33,066 nt of DNA, taken from positions 1-33,066 of the forward strand of contig CALVJL010000012.1 of the NCBI GenBank assembly GCA_944332075.1. The letters are read 5' to 3'. Shown one piece after another: positions 7,589 to 21,598 of the stretch. Position 1 is the stretch's first letter. Every line of letters starts with the position of its first letter. This DNA is from an uncultured Bacilli bacterium (lineage in GTDB: Bacteria > Bacillota_I > Bacilli_A > RFN20 > CAG-449). The position numbers and the translations under genes are program-made. The notes beneath the pieces are model-generated. The model made no database searches and was not told the origin of the DNA. It was given only the letters and a program-made list of their open reading frames with translations.

Positions 7589-8962
7589 ATGTCATTATTT
7601 AAATCAGAAGGATGCAAGCATCTGACTGGAATCAATGACACCAAACATTTAACCTCAGAAAAAGAGATTTTGACTCTCCCTGATGAATACAGCAAGGAAG
7701 TCTATGTACCTCTTGTCGATCCAGGTAAAGGATTACCAATTAACGTTGAAGCTAAAGTTGGCGATCACGTTAAAGTTGGTACCTTAATCGGAACGAGAAA
7801 TATGTTTGGTAACTTGATTCCAATCTATTCACCGGTTTCCGGTGTCATCAAAGGTGAAGAAAATATTCTTCACGGCGGACTTGGCAGAATGGCCAAGCAT
7901 TACGTTATCGAAAACGATTTCAAGTATGAAAATGTCAAAGTTTGCGAACCATTTTCATTAGAATCTGATTCCGATACAATTATCGATGCTATGCAGAAAC
8001 TTGGATTAGTCGGTCTCGGCGGAGCTGGTTTCCCAACATTCATCAAATATAAAGGTGTTAAAGATATCGATACTATTATTATCAATGGTGTCGAATGCGA
8101 ACCATTCTTAACTACCGACTACAACGCAATGATTAAAGAAAGCGAAGAATTATTCCTCGGTGCCTCTTTAATGATGAAAGCTGCACATGCTCAAAGAGCT
8201 TTAATTTGCTTTAAGCAAAACAAAGTTAGAGTCTATGAGGCTTTGAAAGATAAAGTTCATGAACATCCAGGCCTTGAACTTAAATTAGTTCCAGATGTCT
8301 ATCCGATGGGCTGGGAAAAACTTCTCTGCAAGACAGTTACTGGTAGAACTTATGAAAAATTACCAGCAGAAGCTCACGTAATTATCAATAACGCTCAAAC
8401 AGCAATTGAATTAGCTAAGTCGTCTAAGACTGGCTTTATTACAAGAAGCAAAATGCTCACAGTTACCGGTGAAGGCCTTAAAGAAAACGCTAATGTAATA
8501 GTGCCAATCGGAACTAAGGTTAGTGAAATTGTTCGTTTCATGGGTGGTTATACCATCGATGAAGGTGTCGTTTTATTAGGTGGACCAATGTGTTCAAGAG
8601 GCTTAATGAACGATAACTGCGCAATTCTTCCTCAAAACGATGCTATCACCGTTTTAAGAAAGTTAAAGAGAAGAACTCAACAATGCTTAAGATGCGGTGC
8701 TTGTACAGATCACTGCCCAACTAACTTACAGCCAGTTGAGATTAAAATCGCATATGAACACAAAGACATGGATAGAATGATGGCTTTGAAACCAACAGTC
8801 TGTATCGGCTGCGGATTATGTTCTTATGTCTGCCCAAGCCAAATTGAAGTCAATGATTTCGTTAAGAAGGCTAAGGCTTTAGTTATGATGGAACAAACAA
8901 AACGCAAAGCCGCTGAAGCTAAAAAGGCTGAAGCAGCAAAACCTCAAGGAGGAAAACAATAA
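7589..8962 (+). CDS. rnfC: Rnf complex subunit RnfC (NADH-binding, iron-sulfur)
   Basis: 457 residues, typical of Firmicutes RnfC. This peripheral subunit binds FMN and NAD(H) and carries two [4Fe-4S] clusters. The N-terminal barrel-like region is followed by the glycine-rich VGLGGAGFPTFIK motif (about 141-153) and the INGVECEPFLTTDY FMN/NADH-site signature. The cluster motifs CLRCGACTDHC and CIGCGLCSYVC begin at C366 and C405, each with a following CP. The C-terminal ~25 residues are Lys/Ala-rich. The start has a GAGGAG ribosome site. Its stop overlaps the rnfD start by one base, indicating translational coupling. Confidence 0.97.
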   Translation: MSLFKSEGCKHLTGINDTKHLTSEKEILTLPDEYSKEVYVPLVDPGKGLPINVEAKVGDHVKVGTLIGTRNMFGNLIPIYSPVSGVIKGEENILHGGLGRMAKHYVIENDFKYENVKVCEPFSLESDSDTIIDAMQKLGLVGLGGAGFPTFIKYKGVKDIDTIIINGVECEPFLTTDYNAMIKESEELFLGASLMMKAAHAQRALICFKQNKVRVYEALKDKVHEHPGLELKLVPDVYPMGWEKLLCKTVTGRTYEKLPAEAHVIINNAQTAIELAKSSKTGFITRSKMLTVTGEGLKENANVIVPIGTKVSEIVRFMGGYTIDEGVVLLGGPMCSRGLMNDNCAILPQNDAITVLRKLKRRTQQCLRCGACTDHCPTNLQPVEIKIAYEHKDMDRMMALKPTVCIGCGLCSYVCPSQIEVNDFVKKAKALVMMEQTKRKAAEAKKAEAAKPQGGKQ

Positions 8963-10905
8963 TGAAATTCGGAATGAATCCGGGTCCATATTATCGTTCA
9001 AACAGATCAACTACCCACATTATGATGGAGTTGATGATCGGTTTGGCTGTAATTTGGCTCAGCGCGATCGTCTTCTACTTCATGCAAAGCAACGCTAACG
9101 GTGTCTTAGCTATCGTTAATCCGATAATTGCTATGGTTACCGCTATCGTTGTCGAAGCTCTCTTCATGCTTCCAAAGACGATTAAAGAAAAGAGAAGCTT
9201 CAAAGATTTACTCGATGATGTATTTCATTCCTATGGCTATGTCAGCGGAATGATCTTAGCTTTAATTTTACCGGTTGCAACTTCTTGGTATGCAATCGTC
9301 ATTTCTACAATTATCGGTGTTGGCGTCGCTAAGATGCTCTTCGGCGGATTTGGTCACAACATCTTTAACCCAGCAATCGTTGGAAGAATCATTTGCCAAA
9401 CTTGCTTCTTAGACAAGATGGCTTATGACGCTGAAATCACAACCGGTGCAACTATTACTACCGCTATGGGCAGCAATGGTTGGTCTCTTGATTTACTCAA
9501 TACCGGTCACGTTTCCTTTATCGATCTCTTATTTGGTAACTACCGCGGTGCTTTAGGTGAAACCTTTACTATTATCTTATTAATAGTCGGTATCGTTTTA
9601 GTTATTAGAAAAGTTATCGACTGGAGAGCTCCAGTATTCTACTTAGCAACCATTTATGTCGCAACCTTCATCATGGGCCTTTGCGGCGGATATGGTATCG
9701 ATAGCTTTGAATATGCTTTAGTCCAAATTGCTTTAGGCGGCGTTATGTTCGGCGCAGTCTTCTGCTTAACTGACCCAGTTACTTCACCTACTTCAAGAGC
9801 TGGCCGCGTTTTCTTCGGTATGGGTGCTGCTTTAATTACTATGTTAATTAGATACTGCGCTTCTGCTCCTGAAGGCGTTGCTTATTCAATTCTCTTTATG
9901 AATCTCTTCACACCGCTTATTGATTTAGCAGTTAAGGGATTAAGTAAAGAACATACTAGAAGAAATATCATCACAACATCCGTTATGGGTGCAGTCGCTA
10001 TTGTCGGCGGACTTTACTTAGGCTTCAGCAAGATTGATAAGATGGGATTCTTCAACTATGAATACTCATTTGCTGATAAGACTGGTGAATTCACTGCAAC
10101 TATCAACTATGCTGGTGCAAAAGACGGCATTGAAAGCTATGACGTCTCTGTTACCGGTTATGTCGCAACCAACACTGAACATAATTTCGGTGATGTTAGA
10201 ACAGTTTTCGCAGGTGCTCTTGATAAATACGAAAACGGAACTGAATATCCAAATTATCAATTCGTCGTCAATGATAACGGTACATCCCTTGATTTAACTT
10301 ATGAAAAGGATGATGCTGAACAAACTATCGAAGGTGTTCTCAAATTAAAAACTGATAACACTAACGATACTTATACTATTGTTGATTCAGTTTCTGGATA
10401 TTATCTCCCAACTGATGTTTCCACAGAAGAAGCTGTTTATTCATTAGAAATTGCAGATGATTATTCTATCATCCTTACTATGGCTGATGGACATACTTCA
10501 CAAGATAACAATTCCATGTCTTATGCTTCTATGAGCTTCACCATTGATATTGATTATGAAAATAAAGTCGTAGTTGCAACACACTTAAAATCTACTGGTG
10601 CTGGCGGCGGATACGGCGATGCAATGCTTGATTTTGAAAATACTCCATATGCTCCTTATTTAAGCGATGAGGCAGCGATGAAGTTATTGAATTTCTATGC
10701 TACATACGTCAATATCTCTACTCCTGTCCCATTCTCAACTTATGAAAAATACAACACTCAGACTGCATTGATTGATACAGTTAATAGCGATTTACATGTC
10801 GGTGCAACTTATACTGCTAACGGCTTTATGTATATGATGAACCGCGTTATTGAATACGCTCAATATTATCATCAATCATTATCAGCCGGAAAGGTGGTCA
10901 GATAA
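8962..10905 (+). CDS. rnfD: Rnf complex subunit RnfD with a large extra C-terminal domain
   Basis: 647 residues, against about 300-350 for ordinary RnfD. Residues 1-355 form the multi-span membrane core. TTGAT at 160-164 matches the S/T-G-A-T flavinylation motif, with Thr164 the expected covalent FMN site. DPVTSPTSRAGR (about 271) is a conserved NqrB/RnfD stretch. After the last core span (about 335-355) comes an extra ~290-residue soluble domain, probably extracellular because it continues from the side where FMN is attached. It ends in D610-L-H-V-G-A-T616-Y-T, which lines up with the FMN_bind/ApbE target pattern D-x-x-S-G-A-T-x-T except for Val in place of Ser. The region around 590-635 otherwise reads like the closing part of an FMN_bind domain. 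A fused RnfG-like domain is inferred from this. Confidence 0.93.
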   Translation: MKFGMNPGPYYRSNRSTTHIMMELMIGLAVIWLSAIVFYFMQSNANGVLAIVNPIIAMVTAIVVEALFMLPKTIKEKRSFKDLLDDVFHSYGYVSGMILALILPVATSWYAIVISTIIGVGVAKMLFGGFGHNIFNPAIVGRIICQTCFLDKMAYDAEITTGATITTAMGSNGWSLDLLNTGHVSFIDLLFGNYRGALGETFTIILLIVGIVLVIRKVIDWRAPVFYLATIYVATFIMGLCGGYGIDSFEYALVQIALGGVMFGAVFCLTDPVTSPTSRAGRVFFGMGAALITMLIRYCASAPEGVAYSILFMNLFTPLIDLAVKGLSKEHTRRNIITTSVMGAVAIVGGLYLGFSKIDKMGFFNYEYSFADKTGEFTATINYAGAKDGIESYDVSVTGYVATNTEHNFGDVRTVFAGALDKYENGTEYPNYQFVVNDNGTSLDLTYEKDDAEQTIEGVLKLKTDNTNDTYTIVDSVSGYYLPTDVSTEEAVYSLEIADDYSIILTMADGHTSQDNNSMSYASMSFTIDIDYENKVVVATHLKSTGAGGGYGDAMLDFENTPYAPYLSDEAAMKLLNFYATYVNISTPVPFSTYEKYNTQTALIDTVNSDLHVGATYTANGFMYMMNRVIEYAQYYHQSLSAGKVVR

Positions 10906-10907
10906 TT

Positions 10908-11858
10908 ATGAATAAATTAGTAAAGATGCCTTTATTCTTAGGTGTTACCTGCCTCGTCTGCGGCGGATTACTCGCAGGTATCGTCGCTTTGACTGATCCG
11001 GTTATTGAAAAGAATGAGCAAGAACGCTTATCAGCAGCATTCAGAACTATGTATGATGATGAAAGCGCACTTGTTACTAAAACCATCGTTATCAATGAAG
11101 AAGGTAATCCAATTTCTGAAATTAACGATGTCACTCATACTGGAGGAGAATCAGCTGTCTATAAAGTTACTTCTTCTTCCTCTTATGAAAGAATGACTTT
11201 CTACGTCGGTATCTCTAGAGAGAATAATACTGTTGATGCTTATTATTCATTGTCAACATCTACTTCTTCTCTTGGATATGGCAACTTCCAAAACTCTGCT
11301 AATATTTCAAATCTCTATCAAGGATATGATGGAAACGGAACAATTATCATTGCCGGAACATCGGTTACTTCAAGAGCGGTTAAAGTCGCTGTTGATGCTT
11401 GCCTTGATGATTATGCGGTTAGATATTTAGGCGAAGGCGGAAGCCAAGATGAGACATTAGCTTTCTACCAAGAAATGTATGGTGAAAGCGCCGTCCTCAA
11501 GGCTGAAGCAGCTATCAATGAAGGTGGAGTTTTAAATGGCTATCTCGTCGAATACGAAGATGCAACTCATTATATCTATGAATTAACAATCACTGTTGAT
11601 GGAACAACAACTACTTACTATGTCGGTATGGATAATGCTGGTCGCGGTGAAGTTTATAAGTATATTAGCTGCACTGATATCAATACTTGGTCATTCTTCT
11701 ATCTCCACAACAATGAAAAGATGACAGAAGGTATCAAAGGAAAATTCCATGGTACATTCGAAATTGCTCCAGAAAGCGAAGAAGTAAATACAGCTTTCAA
11801 TGAAGTCTATACTTTCGCTTTGCAAGATCTTGCTGTGCGCGACTGGGAGGTAAAGTAA
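10908..11858 (+). CDS. rnfG: RnfG-like FMN-binding subunit with a degenerate flavinylation motif
   Basis: 316 residues, longer than the usual ~190-210. An N-terminal membrane anchor (about 9-29) is followed by an extracellular domain. TDPVIEKNEQERLSAAF after the anchor and the SLGYGNFQN region are RnfG-like. The expected acceptor motif S-G-A-T-x-T-S appears as A149-G-T-S152-V-T-S, and the Asp three residues before the S/A position is Ile. If flavin is bound covalently, Ser152 would be the acceptor; otherwise flavinylation is lost. Residues ~165-316 look like a second, motif-free copy of the same kind of domain. The gene's place between rnfD and rnfE fixes its identity. The ribosome site GGTGG overlaps the end of rnfD. 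Confidence 0.85.
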   Translation: MNKLVKMPLFLGVTCLVCGGLLAGIVALTDPVIEKNEQERLSAAFRTMYDDESALVTKTIVINEEGNPISEINDVTHTGGESAVYKVTSSSSYERMTFYVGISRENNTVDAYYSLSTSTSSLGYGNFQNSANISNLYQGYDGNGTIIIAGTSVTSRAVKVAVDACLDDYAVRYLGEGGSQDETLAFYQEMYGESAVLKAEAAINEGGVLNGYLVEYEDATHYIYELTITVDGTTTTYYVGMDNAGRGEVYKYISCTDINTWSFFYLHNNEKMTEGIKGKFHGTFEIAPESEEVNTAFNEVYTFALQDLAVRDWEVK

Positions 11859-11859
11859 A

Positions 11860-12534
11860 ATGAAAGAAACAAAAACAAGTTTACGCCAAGCCTTCACTAA
11901 TCCGATTTTTAAAGAAAATCCGATTCTCGTGACATTATTAGGCCTTTGCCCGGTTTTAATCGTTACTGATACATTTGATAAATCTTGGGGTATGGGAATT
12001 GCTGTCTTATTAGTTCTTATTTTCACTAATATCTTCATTTCTCTTATTCGTAAGATTGTTCCTAATGAAGTTAGAATTCCAGTATTCATCGTTATCATCG
12101 CTTGCTTTGTTACTATTGTCGAACGTTTGATGAACGCTTATACTCCAACTTTATATTCTTCCTTAGGTGTTATTATTTCAATGATCACCGTTAACTGTAT
12201 CGTCCTCGGACGCGGCGAAGCTTTCGCTAGTAAAAACGGTGTTCTTCCTTCTCTTCTCGATGCTATCGGTACTGGAATTGGCTTCTTCTTAGCTGTTTCC
12301 GTTATCGGTTTAGTTAGAGAATTCTTAGGCAAAGGTGGATTGACTATTTCTAATCCTTTCACCGGAGTCGCTATTTTCTCAGCTTATCCATTAGAAGACT
12401 ATGCTATTTCCTTCCTCTGCGATAAGGGCGGAGCATTCTTAATGCTTGGCTTAGCAGTCGGTATCTATTCTTATGTCAGAATCAAACTCGACGAAAGAAA
12501 AGAAAAGGAAGCTGCTCAAGTGGAGGTTAAATAA
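11860..12534 (+). CDS. rnfE: Rnf complex membrane subunit RnfE
   Basis: 224 residues with six predicted membrane spans. Family signatures are LGLCPVLIVTDTFDKSWGMG near residue 22 and NCIVLGRGEAFASKNG near 110. RnfE and RnfA are homologous, oppositely oriented subunits that form the membrane core and hold an iron-sulfur cluster between them through conserved cysteines, here in LGLCP and VNCIV. It starts 1 bp after rnfG with GGGAGG as ribosome site, and is 2 bp from rnfA. Length and motifs are normal. Confidence 0.96.
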   Translation: MKETKTSLRQAFTNPIFKENPILVTLLGLCPVLIVTDTFDKSWGMGIAVLLVLIFTNIFISLIRKIVPNEVRIPVFIVIIACFVTIVERLMNAYTPTLYSSLGVIISMITVNCIVLGRGEAFASKNGVLPSLLDAIGTGIGFFLAVSVIGLVREFLGKGGLTISNPFTGVAIFSAYPLEDYAISFLCDKGGAFLMLGLAVGIYSYVRIKLDERKEKEAAQVEVK

Positions 12535-12536
12535 TT

Positions 12537-13169
12537 ATGGAAGTTATTACCAGTTTATTAGTGGTTTTCATCACTGCGATGATTACCAATAACATCGTCC
12601 TTACCACCGGATATGGTATCTGTTCCTATATCGGTGTTTCCAAAAACAGAAAATCGGCATTCGGCATGGGTGTCGCTTTAGTCTTCGTCGTCTTCATGGC
12701 GAGCTTAGTCTCTTATTTCTTAGAGATGCTCTTAGTAGCTTTGAATATTGAATTTATGCAGACCATCTGCTTTATCTTAGTCATCGCTTCTTTAGTTCAA
12801 CTCGTCGAAATGATCGTTAAGAAATTCTTACCTTCACTTTATAAGAGCTTAGGTATCTACTTACCATTGATTACTACTAACTGCGTTGTCTTATATGTCA
12901 CAAAACAAATTTGCGATGTCGAGACTATTCTCACCGGATTAGGTTTATCTGGCAGCTTAGCAAACAATGGCTTCTTCAATTTCCTCTTCGCGATGGTTTA
13001 TGCCTTAGGCACAGGCTTAGGATATTTCGTCTGTATCGTCTTATTCTCAACCATCAGAACTAAAATCGATTATTCACCGGTTAAGAGAGGTTTCTATGGT
13101 GCCGGTATCGCTTTAGTTACAACTGCTTTAATGGCTCTTACTATCACAGGCTTAGCAGGAATTTTCTAG
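12537..13169 (+). CDS. rnfA: Rnf complex membrane subunit RnfA
   Basis: 210 residues with six spans, slightly longer than the usual ~190. Signatures are ITAMITNNIVLTTGYGICSYIGVS at the N-terminus and LPLITTNCVVLYV near residue 117, each with one of the cluster cysteines. The TTGYGIC stretch differs from the FLGICPF form seen in many relatives. RnfA pairs with RnfE in the ion-translocating core. The GTGGAGG ribosome site lies in the end of rnfE, and the stop is 1 bp before the next small gene. Confidence 0.95.
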   Translation: MEVITSLLVVFITAMITNNIVLTTGYGICSYIGVSKNRKSAFGMGVALVFVVFMASLVSYFLEMLLVALNIEFMQTICFILVIASLVQLVEMIVKKFLPSLYKSLGIYLPLITTNCVVLYVTKQICDVETILTGLGLSGSLANNGFFNFLFAMVYALGTGLGYFVCIVLFSTIRTKIDYSPVKRGFYGAGIALVTTALMALTITGLAGIF

Positions 13170-13170
13170 A

Positions 13171-13356
13171 ATGCGATATCTCTACATTCTGTTAGTGCTC
13201 ATCGTCTTCGTCGGGGTTTTCTGCTTAATTTGGTATCTTAATTCTCGGACTAAGAAACCAGATGATTGCGGAGAACTGCCAGAAGAATGTAAGCACTGCA
13301 GTGTTACTATCTGTAAGAATCATCCTAAAGATCAGAAAACGGAGGAAAAGAAATGA
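13171..13356 (+). CDS. Small cysteine-rich membrane protein between rnfA and rnfB
   Basis: 61 residues. One membrane span (about 4-22) is followed by a short soluble tail with C33-x6-C40-x2-C43-x4-C48 and a Lys/Glu-rich end. Four tail cysteines could hold zinc or an iron-sulfur cluster; neither is proven. The gene lies 1 bp after rnfA and overlaps the rnfB start by 4 bp (ATGA), so its product should be made with Rnf. I know of no named family. Because RnfB here lacks its usual ferredoxin domains, this protein is a candidate extra electron carrier or assembly factor. The ribosome site (AGGA) is weak, fitting coupling to rnfA. Confidence 0.75.
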   Translation: MRYLYILLVLIVFVGVFCLIWYLNSRTKKPDDCGELPEECKHCSVTICKNHPKDQKTEEKK

Positions 13357-13637
13357 TTTACGTTTACGCTTGTATCGTTGTCGTTGTCGCCGGAATTATC
13401 TTAGGTTTAGCCTTAGGCTTAGCCGATAAATATTTAAAGATTGAAGAAGATCCACGTAAAGACGACATTACAGCATTGCTTCCAGGTGCTAACTGCGGAG
13501 CATGTGGTTATCCTGGCTGCTCAGGTTTAGCAGAAGCTATGGTCGAGGGAAAATCTACTAAAGCTAGCGACTGCAAAGTCATCAAAGGTGACAAGCAAAA
13601 AGCTTTACAAGATTATCTCGACAATATGAAGAAATAA
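13353..13637 (+). CDS. rnfB: Minimal RnfB: membrane anchor plus one 4Fe-4S domain, no ferredoxin domains
   Basis: 94 residues. An N-terminal span (about 2-22) is followed by ITALLPGANCGACGYPGC, with cluster ligands C48, C51, C56 and C74, the PF04060-type Fer4 domain at the base of every RnfB. Ordinary RnfB continues for 90-200 residues with two or more CxxCxxCxxxCP ferredoxin motifs that accept electrons from soluble ferredoxin. Here the frame ends cleanly at 13637, and the TSCPD gene starts 2 bp later, so there is no leftover coding sequence. A GGAGG ribosome site precedes the ATG. This is either a lineage-specific short form or a loss compensated by another protein. Confidence 0.9.
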   Translation: MIYVYACIVVVVAGIILGLALGLADKYLKIEEDPRKDDITALLPGANCGACGYPGCSGLAEAMVEGKSTKASDCKVIKGDKQKALQDYLDNMKK

Positions 13638-19801: not shown

Positions 19802-19858
19802 ATGCGCTTTTCTTTGCATTTATTTAAATTTTTTAATAATATTTTAAAAGGTGAGAAT

Positions 19859-21598
19859 ATGAAAAAATTTAAATTATCTTTTTTATTAGTCGCATTAGGA
19901 ACCTTGTCGGCATGTCAGGGCAATAATCCGTTTAATCCAAGCAATAATGAATCCTGGTATTCTAATACTATTCAAACGCAGATTATCGGTATGTCGGGCG
20001 ATCCAGTTCAACCTTTTGATAAAGAAACTAACAGCATGCTTAATCAATTAGACGCGGTCATTTCGCCTTTTGATACGACTATTTCCGTTACTCGTTATCA
20101 AAATAATCAAAATTTCTCGGATATTACTTCCTTAGTTAGAAATAATTTTAGTGAATTACATGCTTATTTTGATTCGCATTACGATTATAAAATTAATGGA
20201 AATTTAATTAATAATCTTAAAACGATTAATGATCATTATGGCGATGGAGAATTTATTGAAGTTAACGATGATTTGTATTCAATTTTACAGACTGCAGTTA
20301 GAGTTACTGAAGTAGCAGATGGCTATTATAACATCGGTATCGGCGCGCTTTCTGATCTTTGGAAAGAATATATTAACTATAATAAGGGCAATACTTCTTC
20401 AGCTCGTCCGATTTACCGTAAGCTTTATACAAGCGCCTTTATGATGGAAACATTATTTAATTACGATATTACCTATGCTGAGGAAGCAAAGGGAATTTAT
20501 GAAGCAATTCTTTTATTAGTTACTGATAAAGGTACTTTTGAAGACAGCCAAAACCTAGCATATCATTTGAAATTTATTAACGGTGAAGAAGAAGCTGATT
20601 TCCTTTTAGGATTTAATAACCAATTAAAAATTAATGCTTATACTTTATTAAACGGGGATGAGCTTACTTCTTTAGCAAATTTAAAAGAAAATGCAGTAAG
20701 CAGCCAAATTAAGAATTTTACTAAAGGTAGTAATTTAACAATTTTTGGTGACAGCAACCTTGATTCTAGATTCACTCAATTACTTGAAAATGTAGTTACT
20801 GATGCCTCAGCGCGTCTAGAAAAGACGAAAAAAGGTATGGTACCAACTGCTAGTGAAGTAGCGGCTGCTAAATCGGCTGTTCCATCCGGAGAAGAAATTG
20901 CTTCAGTTGTCGAATTTAAAGAAGAAAATAATAAAAAGTACGTTAGATTAAATAAATTACAAGGTGCAGAGCAAGATGTGAGATTATCGCTTGGTTCTAT
21001 CGGTAAAGGTTATGCTGTTAAGAAAATGCAGGAAAAACTTGATCCAAACGGAATCGCTTATGTTAATGGCGGTGATTCATCAGTTTCGACAATTAATGAT
21101 AATATGTTCGGTGCTTGGAAATTAGCAATTACCAATCCTTTATATGGTGAAGCAGTAAATCAAGGCGATAATGCGACTGCTCAGAAATATAATTCGGCAG
21201 AAATGCGTTTAAGCCGTCAGGGAAGTTTCTCTTTCTCGACATCTGGCGATTATGTTAACTGCTATTTTGATAGTGAAGGTCAACGTTATCATCACATTAT
21301 TAACCCAGTTACCGGTTACCCTTCAAATACTTTCAGGACAGTTTCAGTCGTCTGCTCAGATTCGACTTTTGCTGACGCTATTACTACCGGATTAATGGCG
21401 ATGACCATGGATGAAGGTAAAGAATTTATTAAGAATTTACGTTCTCAGTACTCTTTAACTATTTATCCGATTTGGACAGTTCAAGATGGTGCTAGCTTAA
21501 AAGTTTATGCGGATAAAACCCTTGAAGGACAATTAAAAGTTGATCGCGGACAGGAAACACAGAATATTGTTACCAGTTTAGAATTTATTGAGATATAA
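19859..21598 (+). CDS. apbE: FAD:protein FMN transferase ApbE, lipoprotein with a large insertion
   Basis: 579 residues, against about 330-350 for most ApbE. ApbE attaches FMN to Thr/Ser of RnfD, RnfG and similar extracytoplasmic proteins. A lipoprotein signal ends in the lipobox LSAC with Cys19. Residues ~60-160 include SPFDTTISVTRY and the GYYNIGIGALSDLWK stretch of the ApbE N-terminus. About 200 residues then separate this from the active-site part: LGSIGKGYAV (G382-K-G), YVNGGDSS, HHIINPVTGYPSNT (from H478) and the magnesium-ligand stretch ADAITTG (D506, T509/T510). The start at 19859 has AAAGGTGAG upstream and gives a proper signal peptide; the upstream in-frame ATG at 19802 sits at the hpf terminator. 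The insertion (about 165-370) resembles nothing I recognise. It probably serves the Rnf proteins encoded 6 kb away. Confidence 0.92.
   Translation: MKKFKLSFLLVALGTLSACQGNNPFNPSNNESWYSNTIQTQIIGMSGDPVQPFDKETNSMLNQLDAVISPFDTTISVTRYQNNQNFSDITSLVRNNFSELHAYFDSHYDYKINGNLINNLKTINDHYGDGEFIEVNDDLYSILQTAVRVTEVADGYYNIGIGALSDLWKEYINYNKGNTSSARPIYRKLYTSAFMMETLFNYDITYAEEAKGIYEAILLLVTDKGTFEDSQNLAYHLKFINGEEEADFLLGFNNQLKINAYTLLNGDELTSLANLKENAVSSQIKNFTKGSNLTIFGDSNLDSRFTQLLENVVTDASARLEKTKKGMVPTASEVAAAKSAVPSGEEIASVVEFKEENNKKYVRLNKLQGAEQDVRLSLGSIGKGYAVKKMQEKLDPNGIAYVNGGDSSVSTINDNMFGAWKLAITNPLYGEAVNQGDNATAQKYNSAEMRLSRQGSFSFSTSGDYVNCYFDSEGQRYHHIINPVTGYPSNTFRTVSVVCSDSTFADAITTGLMAMTMDEGKEFIKNLRSQYSLTIYPIWTVQDGASLKVYADKTLEGQLKVDRGQETQNIVTSLEFIEI

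Follow-up and report, generated by a model that had tools for sequence, protein, structure and literature searches.

The window analysed here, a stretch of 33,066 nucleotides from an uncultured Bacilli bacterium, probably encodes a complete Rnf complex of a distinct subfamily, in which RnfB consists of a membrane anchor plus one mobile FeS domain, ferredoxin is the direct electron donor, and a 61-residue Cys-rich membrane protein (p61) is an accessory component. The rnfB gene, its conservation among relatives and the ligands kept on the downstream electron path are observed directly. All six Rnf subunits are encoded together at 7589-13637, rnfG being assigned by a weak match and position only, and the gene order is rnfC, rnfD, rnfG, rnfE, rnfA, the 61-residue gene, rnfB, a TSCPD gene and metK. 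The features are as follows.

7589..8962, + strand: rnfC, NAD-side subunit with two 4Fe-4S motifs (457 aa; TIGR01945, 288 bits, over the cut-off)
8962..10905, + strand: rnfD, conserved core with an extra C-terminal helix and a long extension (647 aa; PF03116, 244.5 bits, residues 6-324)
10908..11858, + strand: rnfG, divergent FMN-binding subunit (316 aa; operon position; TIGR01947, 20.6 bits, below the cut-off)
11860..12534, + strand: rnfE (224 aa; PF02508, 195 bits)
12537..13169, + strand: rnfA (210 aa; TIGR01943, 180.9 bits, the best of the models)
13171..13356, + strand: p61, 61-aa Cys-rich membrane protein (homologues beside 89/98 RnfBs without Fer4 domains and 0/50 with them)
13353..13637, + strand: rnfB, single-cluster form (94 aa; PF04060 FeS domain, 50.4 bits, without Fer4; pLDDT 94.8)

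The predicted RnfB has a mass of 9.96 kDa, a helix at residues 2-27 and, in the translated open reading frame, cysteines at positions 7, 48, 51, 56 and 74, of which C48, C51, C56 and C74 form the cluster set; it is an anchor joined to a single FeS domain of four cysteines, after which the protein ends. The Pfam FeS domain (PF04060) spans residues 43-75, and the same Pfam search detected no Fer4 domain in the 94 residues, against at least two in a polyferredoxin-type RnfB. The description given in the initial annotation, a 94-residue protein with the anchor and the first cluster only, is thus borne out. TIGR01944 (rnfB) aligns with residues 4-75 at 58.8 bits, under its 68.7-bit cut-off, as is to be expected because the protein holds only the first part of that model. 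The ATG of rnfB overlaps the stop codon of the 61-residue gene by 4 bp and has GGAGG just upstream, the in-frame opening on its 5' side is only eight codons long, and the TSCPD-domain gene begins 2 bp after the rnfB stop codon, followed by metK. The AlphaFold model is confident and matches the N-terminal part of the RnfB structures 9eri_B, 8ahx_B and 7zc6_B; the FeS domain also matches RnfB of A. woodii structurally. The N-terminal [4Fe-4S] domain of CFeSP shares the FeS fold and the four-cysteine motif with RnfB (Z 9.4, rmsd 1.4 over 55 residues), but CFeSP is a soluble methyl-transfer protein of an unrelated pathway and has no membrane anchor.

The RnfBs of model organisms are usually longer, which would suit a truncated or mis-assembled gene, but the relatives leave practically no room for this reading. 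The length comparison proposed in the initial annotation revealed no full-length RnfB in close relatives: 16 of the 18 genomes of the family match RnfB, in open frames of 102-131 aa from stop to stop in every case, and two genomes of the same genus carry the short form, one of them with an identical protein. Within the order, RnfB matches were found in 77 of 147 genomes; two of these were left out, their sole match being a protein of about 570 aa, and all of the remaining 75 have a short RnfB (102-158 aa from stop to stop). The class sample agrees with the order, apart from one family in which a few frames are longer. In the phylum sample, considered for near-complete genomes, every match falls within the same class as the window, and 88 of the 90 with a recognisable RnfB carry the short form (two of 92 were dropped as weak hits to long proteins). 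The two exceptions are G174, with a 183-aa frame comprising two tandem FeS domains, and G217, with a full-length RnfB of 268 aa in an operon of the Clostridia type. The short frame thus recurs at the scale of the family (16/16 matched genomes), the order (75/75 with RnfB) and the phylum sample, which rules out truncation or mis-assembly in the window, and the genes after rnfB come without any Fer4 remnant. The view that the gene is not a recent truncation therefore holds.

The comparison of operons covered 80 of the class together with 80 named loci obtained by scanning public genomes. RnfB is no longer than 150 aa in 94 of them (median 105), and the named relatives in the short-RnfB branch include Erysipelotrichaceae, Acholeplasma, Candidatus Izemoplasma, Holdemanella biformis and Candidatus Stoquefichus; judging by these names, the class is probably the Bacilli of GTDB. 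RnfBs with Fer4 domains occur in 50 operons, nearly all of other lineages (Clostridia, Bacteroidota, Spirochaetota, Pseudomonadota and others). Four loci from one family of the class (L083, L084, L085 and L086) have RnfBs with two tandem FeS (CxxCx4C...C) domains and not Fer4, which is a different way to add a cluster.

In a FastTree analysis of RnfA, RnfE, RnfC and RnfD jointly (95 rows, 1117 columns), from which RnfB was left out and which had no outside root, complexes with and without Fer4 domains in RnfB occupy the two sides of one branch with a support of 100; the short-RnfB trait therefore belongs to the lineage of the complex. The description of RnfB as "stripped" of its ferredoxin domains implies a loss, but this unrooted tree shows one change of state, which may be a loss or a gain of the Fer4 part. 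Independent contrasts between short RnfB and the companion protein were set aside, since a single trait change on the tree gives them no power. The operon of G217 (L082), with the only full-length RnfB of the class, groups with Oscillospiraceae, has no 61-residue gene and is a probable case of horizontal transfer. A metagenome-assembled genome labelled Defluviitaleaceae (L136) has a short RnfB with the companion and forms a long branch inside the short-RnfB group; this is either a transfer or a mislabelled bin.

Downstream of RnfB, the expected ligands of the [2Fe-2S] cluster, C29 and C116 of RnfA and C30 and C113 of RnfE, are invariant (100% in both the short- and the Fer4-RnfB groups), and the eight cluster cysteines of RnfC are kept in 99% of the short-RnfB operons. 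RnfG of the window scores 15.8 bits with FMN_bind, below the cut-off, and because it is so divergent its flavin loading can only be presumed. It has AGTSVTS in place of the SGAT-type flavin site of the others (10908-11858), and a same-genus RnfG in L023 (521 aa) bears this site twice. A 598-aa protein of the ApbE family (a flavin transferase family) is encoded 6 kb downstream at 19802-21598; its N-terminal 300 residues lie mostly outside the best Pfam stretch.

RnfD also distinguishes the two groups: an extra C-terminal membrane helix is present in 90 of 93 short-RnfB operons versus none of 48 Fer4-RnfB operons, and in the short-RnfB group a further domain often follows this helix. In the window the helix and about 300 more residues are encoded at 9928-10905, and no Pfam match was obtained for this extension. 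In the structure from C. tetanomorphum, the cytoplasmic C-terminus of RnfD rests against RnfC (PMC9588780), so that this end of RnfD must be differently arranged in the short-RnfB group.

The layout of p61 is an N-terminal helix, basic residues and then, usually, C-x(5-10)-C-x2-C-x(3-6)-C. The CxxCx(3-6)C portion is present in 90 of 90 members and the additional first cysteine in 78; the window protein has CxxCx4C. In profile searches a homologue adjoins RnfB at the frequencies listed above, a difference for which the Fisher test gives p of about 1e-30, although the loci are related and the events not independent, and the absence of p61 outside the class rests on 50 Fer4-type operons. At the genome level within the order, p61 was found in 72 of the 75 genomes with RnfB versus two of the 72 without it, a contrast to which many separate cases of Rnf being present or absent contribute. 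The three genomes lacking a match have a shorter, eroded copy in the same place (L050, L207 and L208). L077, L091-L093 and L151 hold no trace of the protein, so p61 cannot be an absolute requirement. A clear homologue at L206:9151-9387 has no rnf gene in the surrounding 18 kb, in a genome without an RnfB match, and in L056 (G031) the homologue lies on the opposite strand, about 2.7 kb from rnfB.

Only the helix at residues 2-26 is confident in the model of p61, the cysteine tail is not, and a cluster geometry therefore cannot be read from it. By the positive-inside rule, the basic residues after the helix would place the cysteines in the cytoplasm, on the same side as the RnfB cluster. The predicted pI of p61 is 8.3 (basic) and that of the 63-aa ferredoxin of this genome 4.1 (acidic), a contrast of charge that would suit docking and proves nothing. 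The nearest Pfam family is PF12669, the FeoB-associated Cys-rich membrane proteins, which are likewise small, with one N-terminal helix and a Cys-rich tail; it matches 15 of 26 companion members weakly (best 2e-4) and the window protein at 18.9 bits, under the 27-bit cut-off, and the genomic partner of p61 is rnf. Searches of NCBIfam and of solved structures (PDB) gave no credible match to p61. RseC, which in C. ljungdahlii is a small membrane protein linked to rnf, was also considered; this genome contains no match to it that exceeds the cut-off. In the description of Peloplasma the list of rnf genes skips one number before the last gene (PMC11122141); judging from the place expected for it, we infer that the skipped gene is the companion.

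Matches to Fer4 profiles elsewhere in the genome are RnfC, pyruvate:ferredoxin oxidoreductase, hydrogenase proteins of the Hyd type and a single mono-cluster ferredoxin of 63 aa, which is present in 18 of 18 genomes of the family. The suggestion that a separate polyferredoxin supplies the missing relay found no support, as no free-standing polyferredoxin was detected with the profiles Fer4_7, Fer4 and Fer4_13. One locus, L120:4432-7273, encodes a protein that resembles hydrogenases and has FeS and PAS-like regions, beside a SpoIIE-type phosphatase and upstream of HydB- and HydA-like genes, and looks like a sensory hydrogenase.

Structures of other Rnf complexes show the small FeS domain of RnfB as a mobile element on a tether that serves as the final carrier ahead of the [2Fe-2S] cluster lying between RnfA and RnfE; the C-terminal part of RnfB, with two to seven clusters, takes electrons from ferredoxin (PMC12174285, PMC11889175). 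The FeS domain of the window RnfB would correspond to this mobile membrane-proximal domain (FdI in C. tetanomorphum, B8 in A. woodii); the short RnfB keeps the last carrier and lacks the ferredoxin-receiving part, and the polyferredoxin arm of larger RnfBs would be an antenna with which the short-RnfB subfamily dispenses. In the path we propose, pyruvate:ferredoxin oxidoreductase would reduce a small soluble ferredoxin with one cluster, and this ferredoxin would pass its electron straight to the cluster of RnfB. The tethered domain would swing over to the [2Fe-2S] cluster located between RnfA and RnfE, and electrons would then travel via RnfG, RnfD and RnfC to NAD+. RnfB of T. maritima has a mass of 10.56 kDa and one predicted cluster (Kuhns et al. 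2020, PMC7414866), and the purified T. maritima Rnf carries out ferredoxin:NAD+ oxidoreduction coupled to Na+ transport, with Clostridium pasteurianum ferredoxin as donor (PMC7414866). The existence of an active complex with a one-cluster RnfB makes it the best explanation that ferredoxin reduces the single cluster directly.

The initial annotation rightly framed the question as one between ferredoxin docking directly on RnfB and a relay supplied by another protein. Near-perfect association with a cysteine-bearing membrane protein suggests that RnfB may not work alone in this subfamily, and p61 could be a relay, a docking or holding subunit, or a maturation factor. As a relay, a membrane-anchored protein with an Fe-S cluster or another metal, it would pass electrons from ferredoxin to the RnfB cluster in place of the polyferredoxin arm. 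Such a role is suggested by its three invariant cysteines and usual fourth, by its position next to RnfBs without Fer4 domains and never beside those with them (50 operons), by its distribution in the order, where the only gaps are eroded copies, and by its absence from the sole Fer4-type operon of the class (L082). But 12 of 90 members lack the fourth cysteine and some lineages lack the whole protein, the tail is not confidently modelled, the nearest family, itself below the cut-off, is not a known electron carrier, and the operons with p61 all belong to one clade, so that at this level the association is one evolutionary event. We therefore regard the relay as doubtful, ranking it second after a non-obligatory accessory role; p61 would then most likely be a small accessory subunit at RnfB that docks, holds or matures the FeS domain and is not an obligatory carrier. 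The related and wider proposal, that p61 is a seventh, metal-cluster-bearing Rnf subunit replacing the polyferredoxin arm across most of the class and forming, with the added helix and domain of RnfD, a second architecture of electron entry, is only tentatively put forward. The TSCPD gene was rejected as a relay, since apart from the window only three near relatives have it immediately next to rnfB.

A donor other than ferredoxin, such as flavodoxin or a docked enzyme (for example, a hydrogenase), would make the classic ferredoxin site unnecessary, in keeping with the loss of the known ferredoxin-receiving part of RnfB and with the hydrogenase proteins with several Fer4 domains encoded in this genome. 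This is unlikely, because T. maritima, whose RnfB is of the same size, uses ferredoxin (PMC7414866), and ferredoxin and pyruvate:ferredoxin oxidoreductase are both encoded here, the former throughout the family. We accordingly prefer ferredoxin as the direct donor to RnfB.

The single-cluster RnfB itself is already known from T. maritima (PMC7414866), a precedent that the initial annotation missed in an interpretation otherwise right about the structure of the protein and its not being a truncation. In the openly licensed literature we found neither the companion nor the RnfD helix described, nor any account of how widely the short RnfB occurs in this class, and the openly licensed work on Rnf in Erysipelotrichia and Izemoplasma gives no account of RnfB length or of a companion; p61, which the initial annotation names only as a co-folding partner, proves to be the more novel element. 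The single-cluster RnfB is no oddity of T. maritima: a large branch of gut and environmental bacteria, comprising Erysipelotrichaceae, Acholeplasmataceae, Izemoplasma and many uncultured lineages, has it as the norm, and a widespread Rnf thus dispenses with the polyferredoxin arm. Together, the companion and the added helix of RnfD mark out a subfamily that can be tested, and the cultured Holdemanella biformis offers a way to find out how ferredoxin reaches the mobile domain of RnfB, a point poorly resolved in present structures.

The Rnf complexes of C. tetanomorphum (7zc6) and A. woodii (9eri) share with that of the window six homologous subunits, the anchor and first FeS domain of RnfB, and the cysteine ligands of RnfA, RnfE and RnfC. 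Unlike the window protein, their RnfBs continue into a polyferredoxin part that adds five or seven clusters, and operons of this clostridial or acetogen type (Fer4) have no 61-residue companion and an RnfD without the extra helix. The T. maritima complex likewise has an RnfB of about 10 kDa with a single predicted 4Fe-4S cluster, and its gene order, rnfCDGEAB, is that of the window apart from the 61-residue gene; its genome also yields a match to a mono-cluster ferredoxin. T. maritima belongs to a different phylum, and its description does not mention a Cys-rich companion (PMC7414866). With a transmembrane anchor, one FeS domain and about 10 kDa, encoded within an rnf operon, the window RnfB resembles the T. 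maritima single-cluster type, a form thus known and functional elsewhere, and the window complex is a predicted ion-pumping ferredoxin:NAD+ oxidoreductase.
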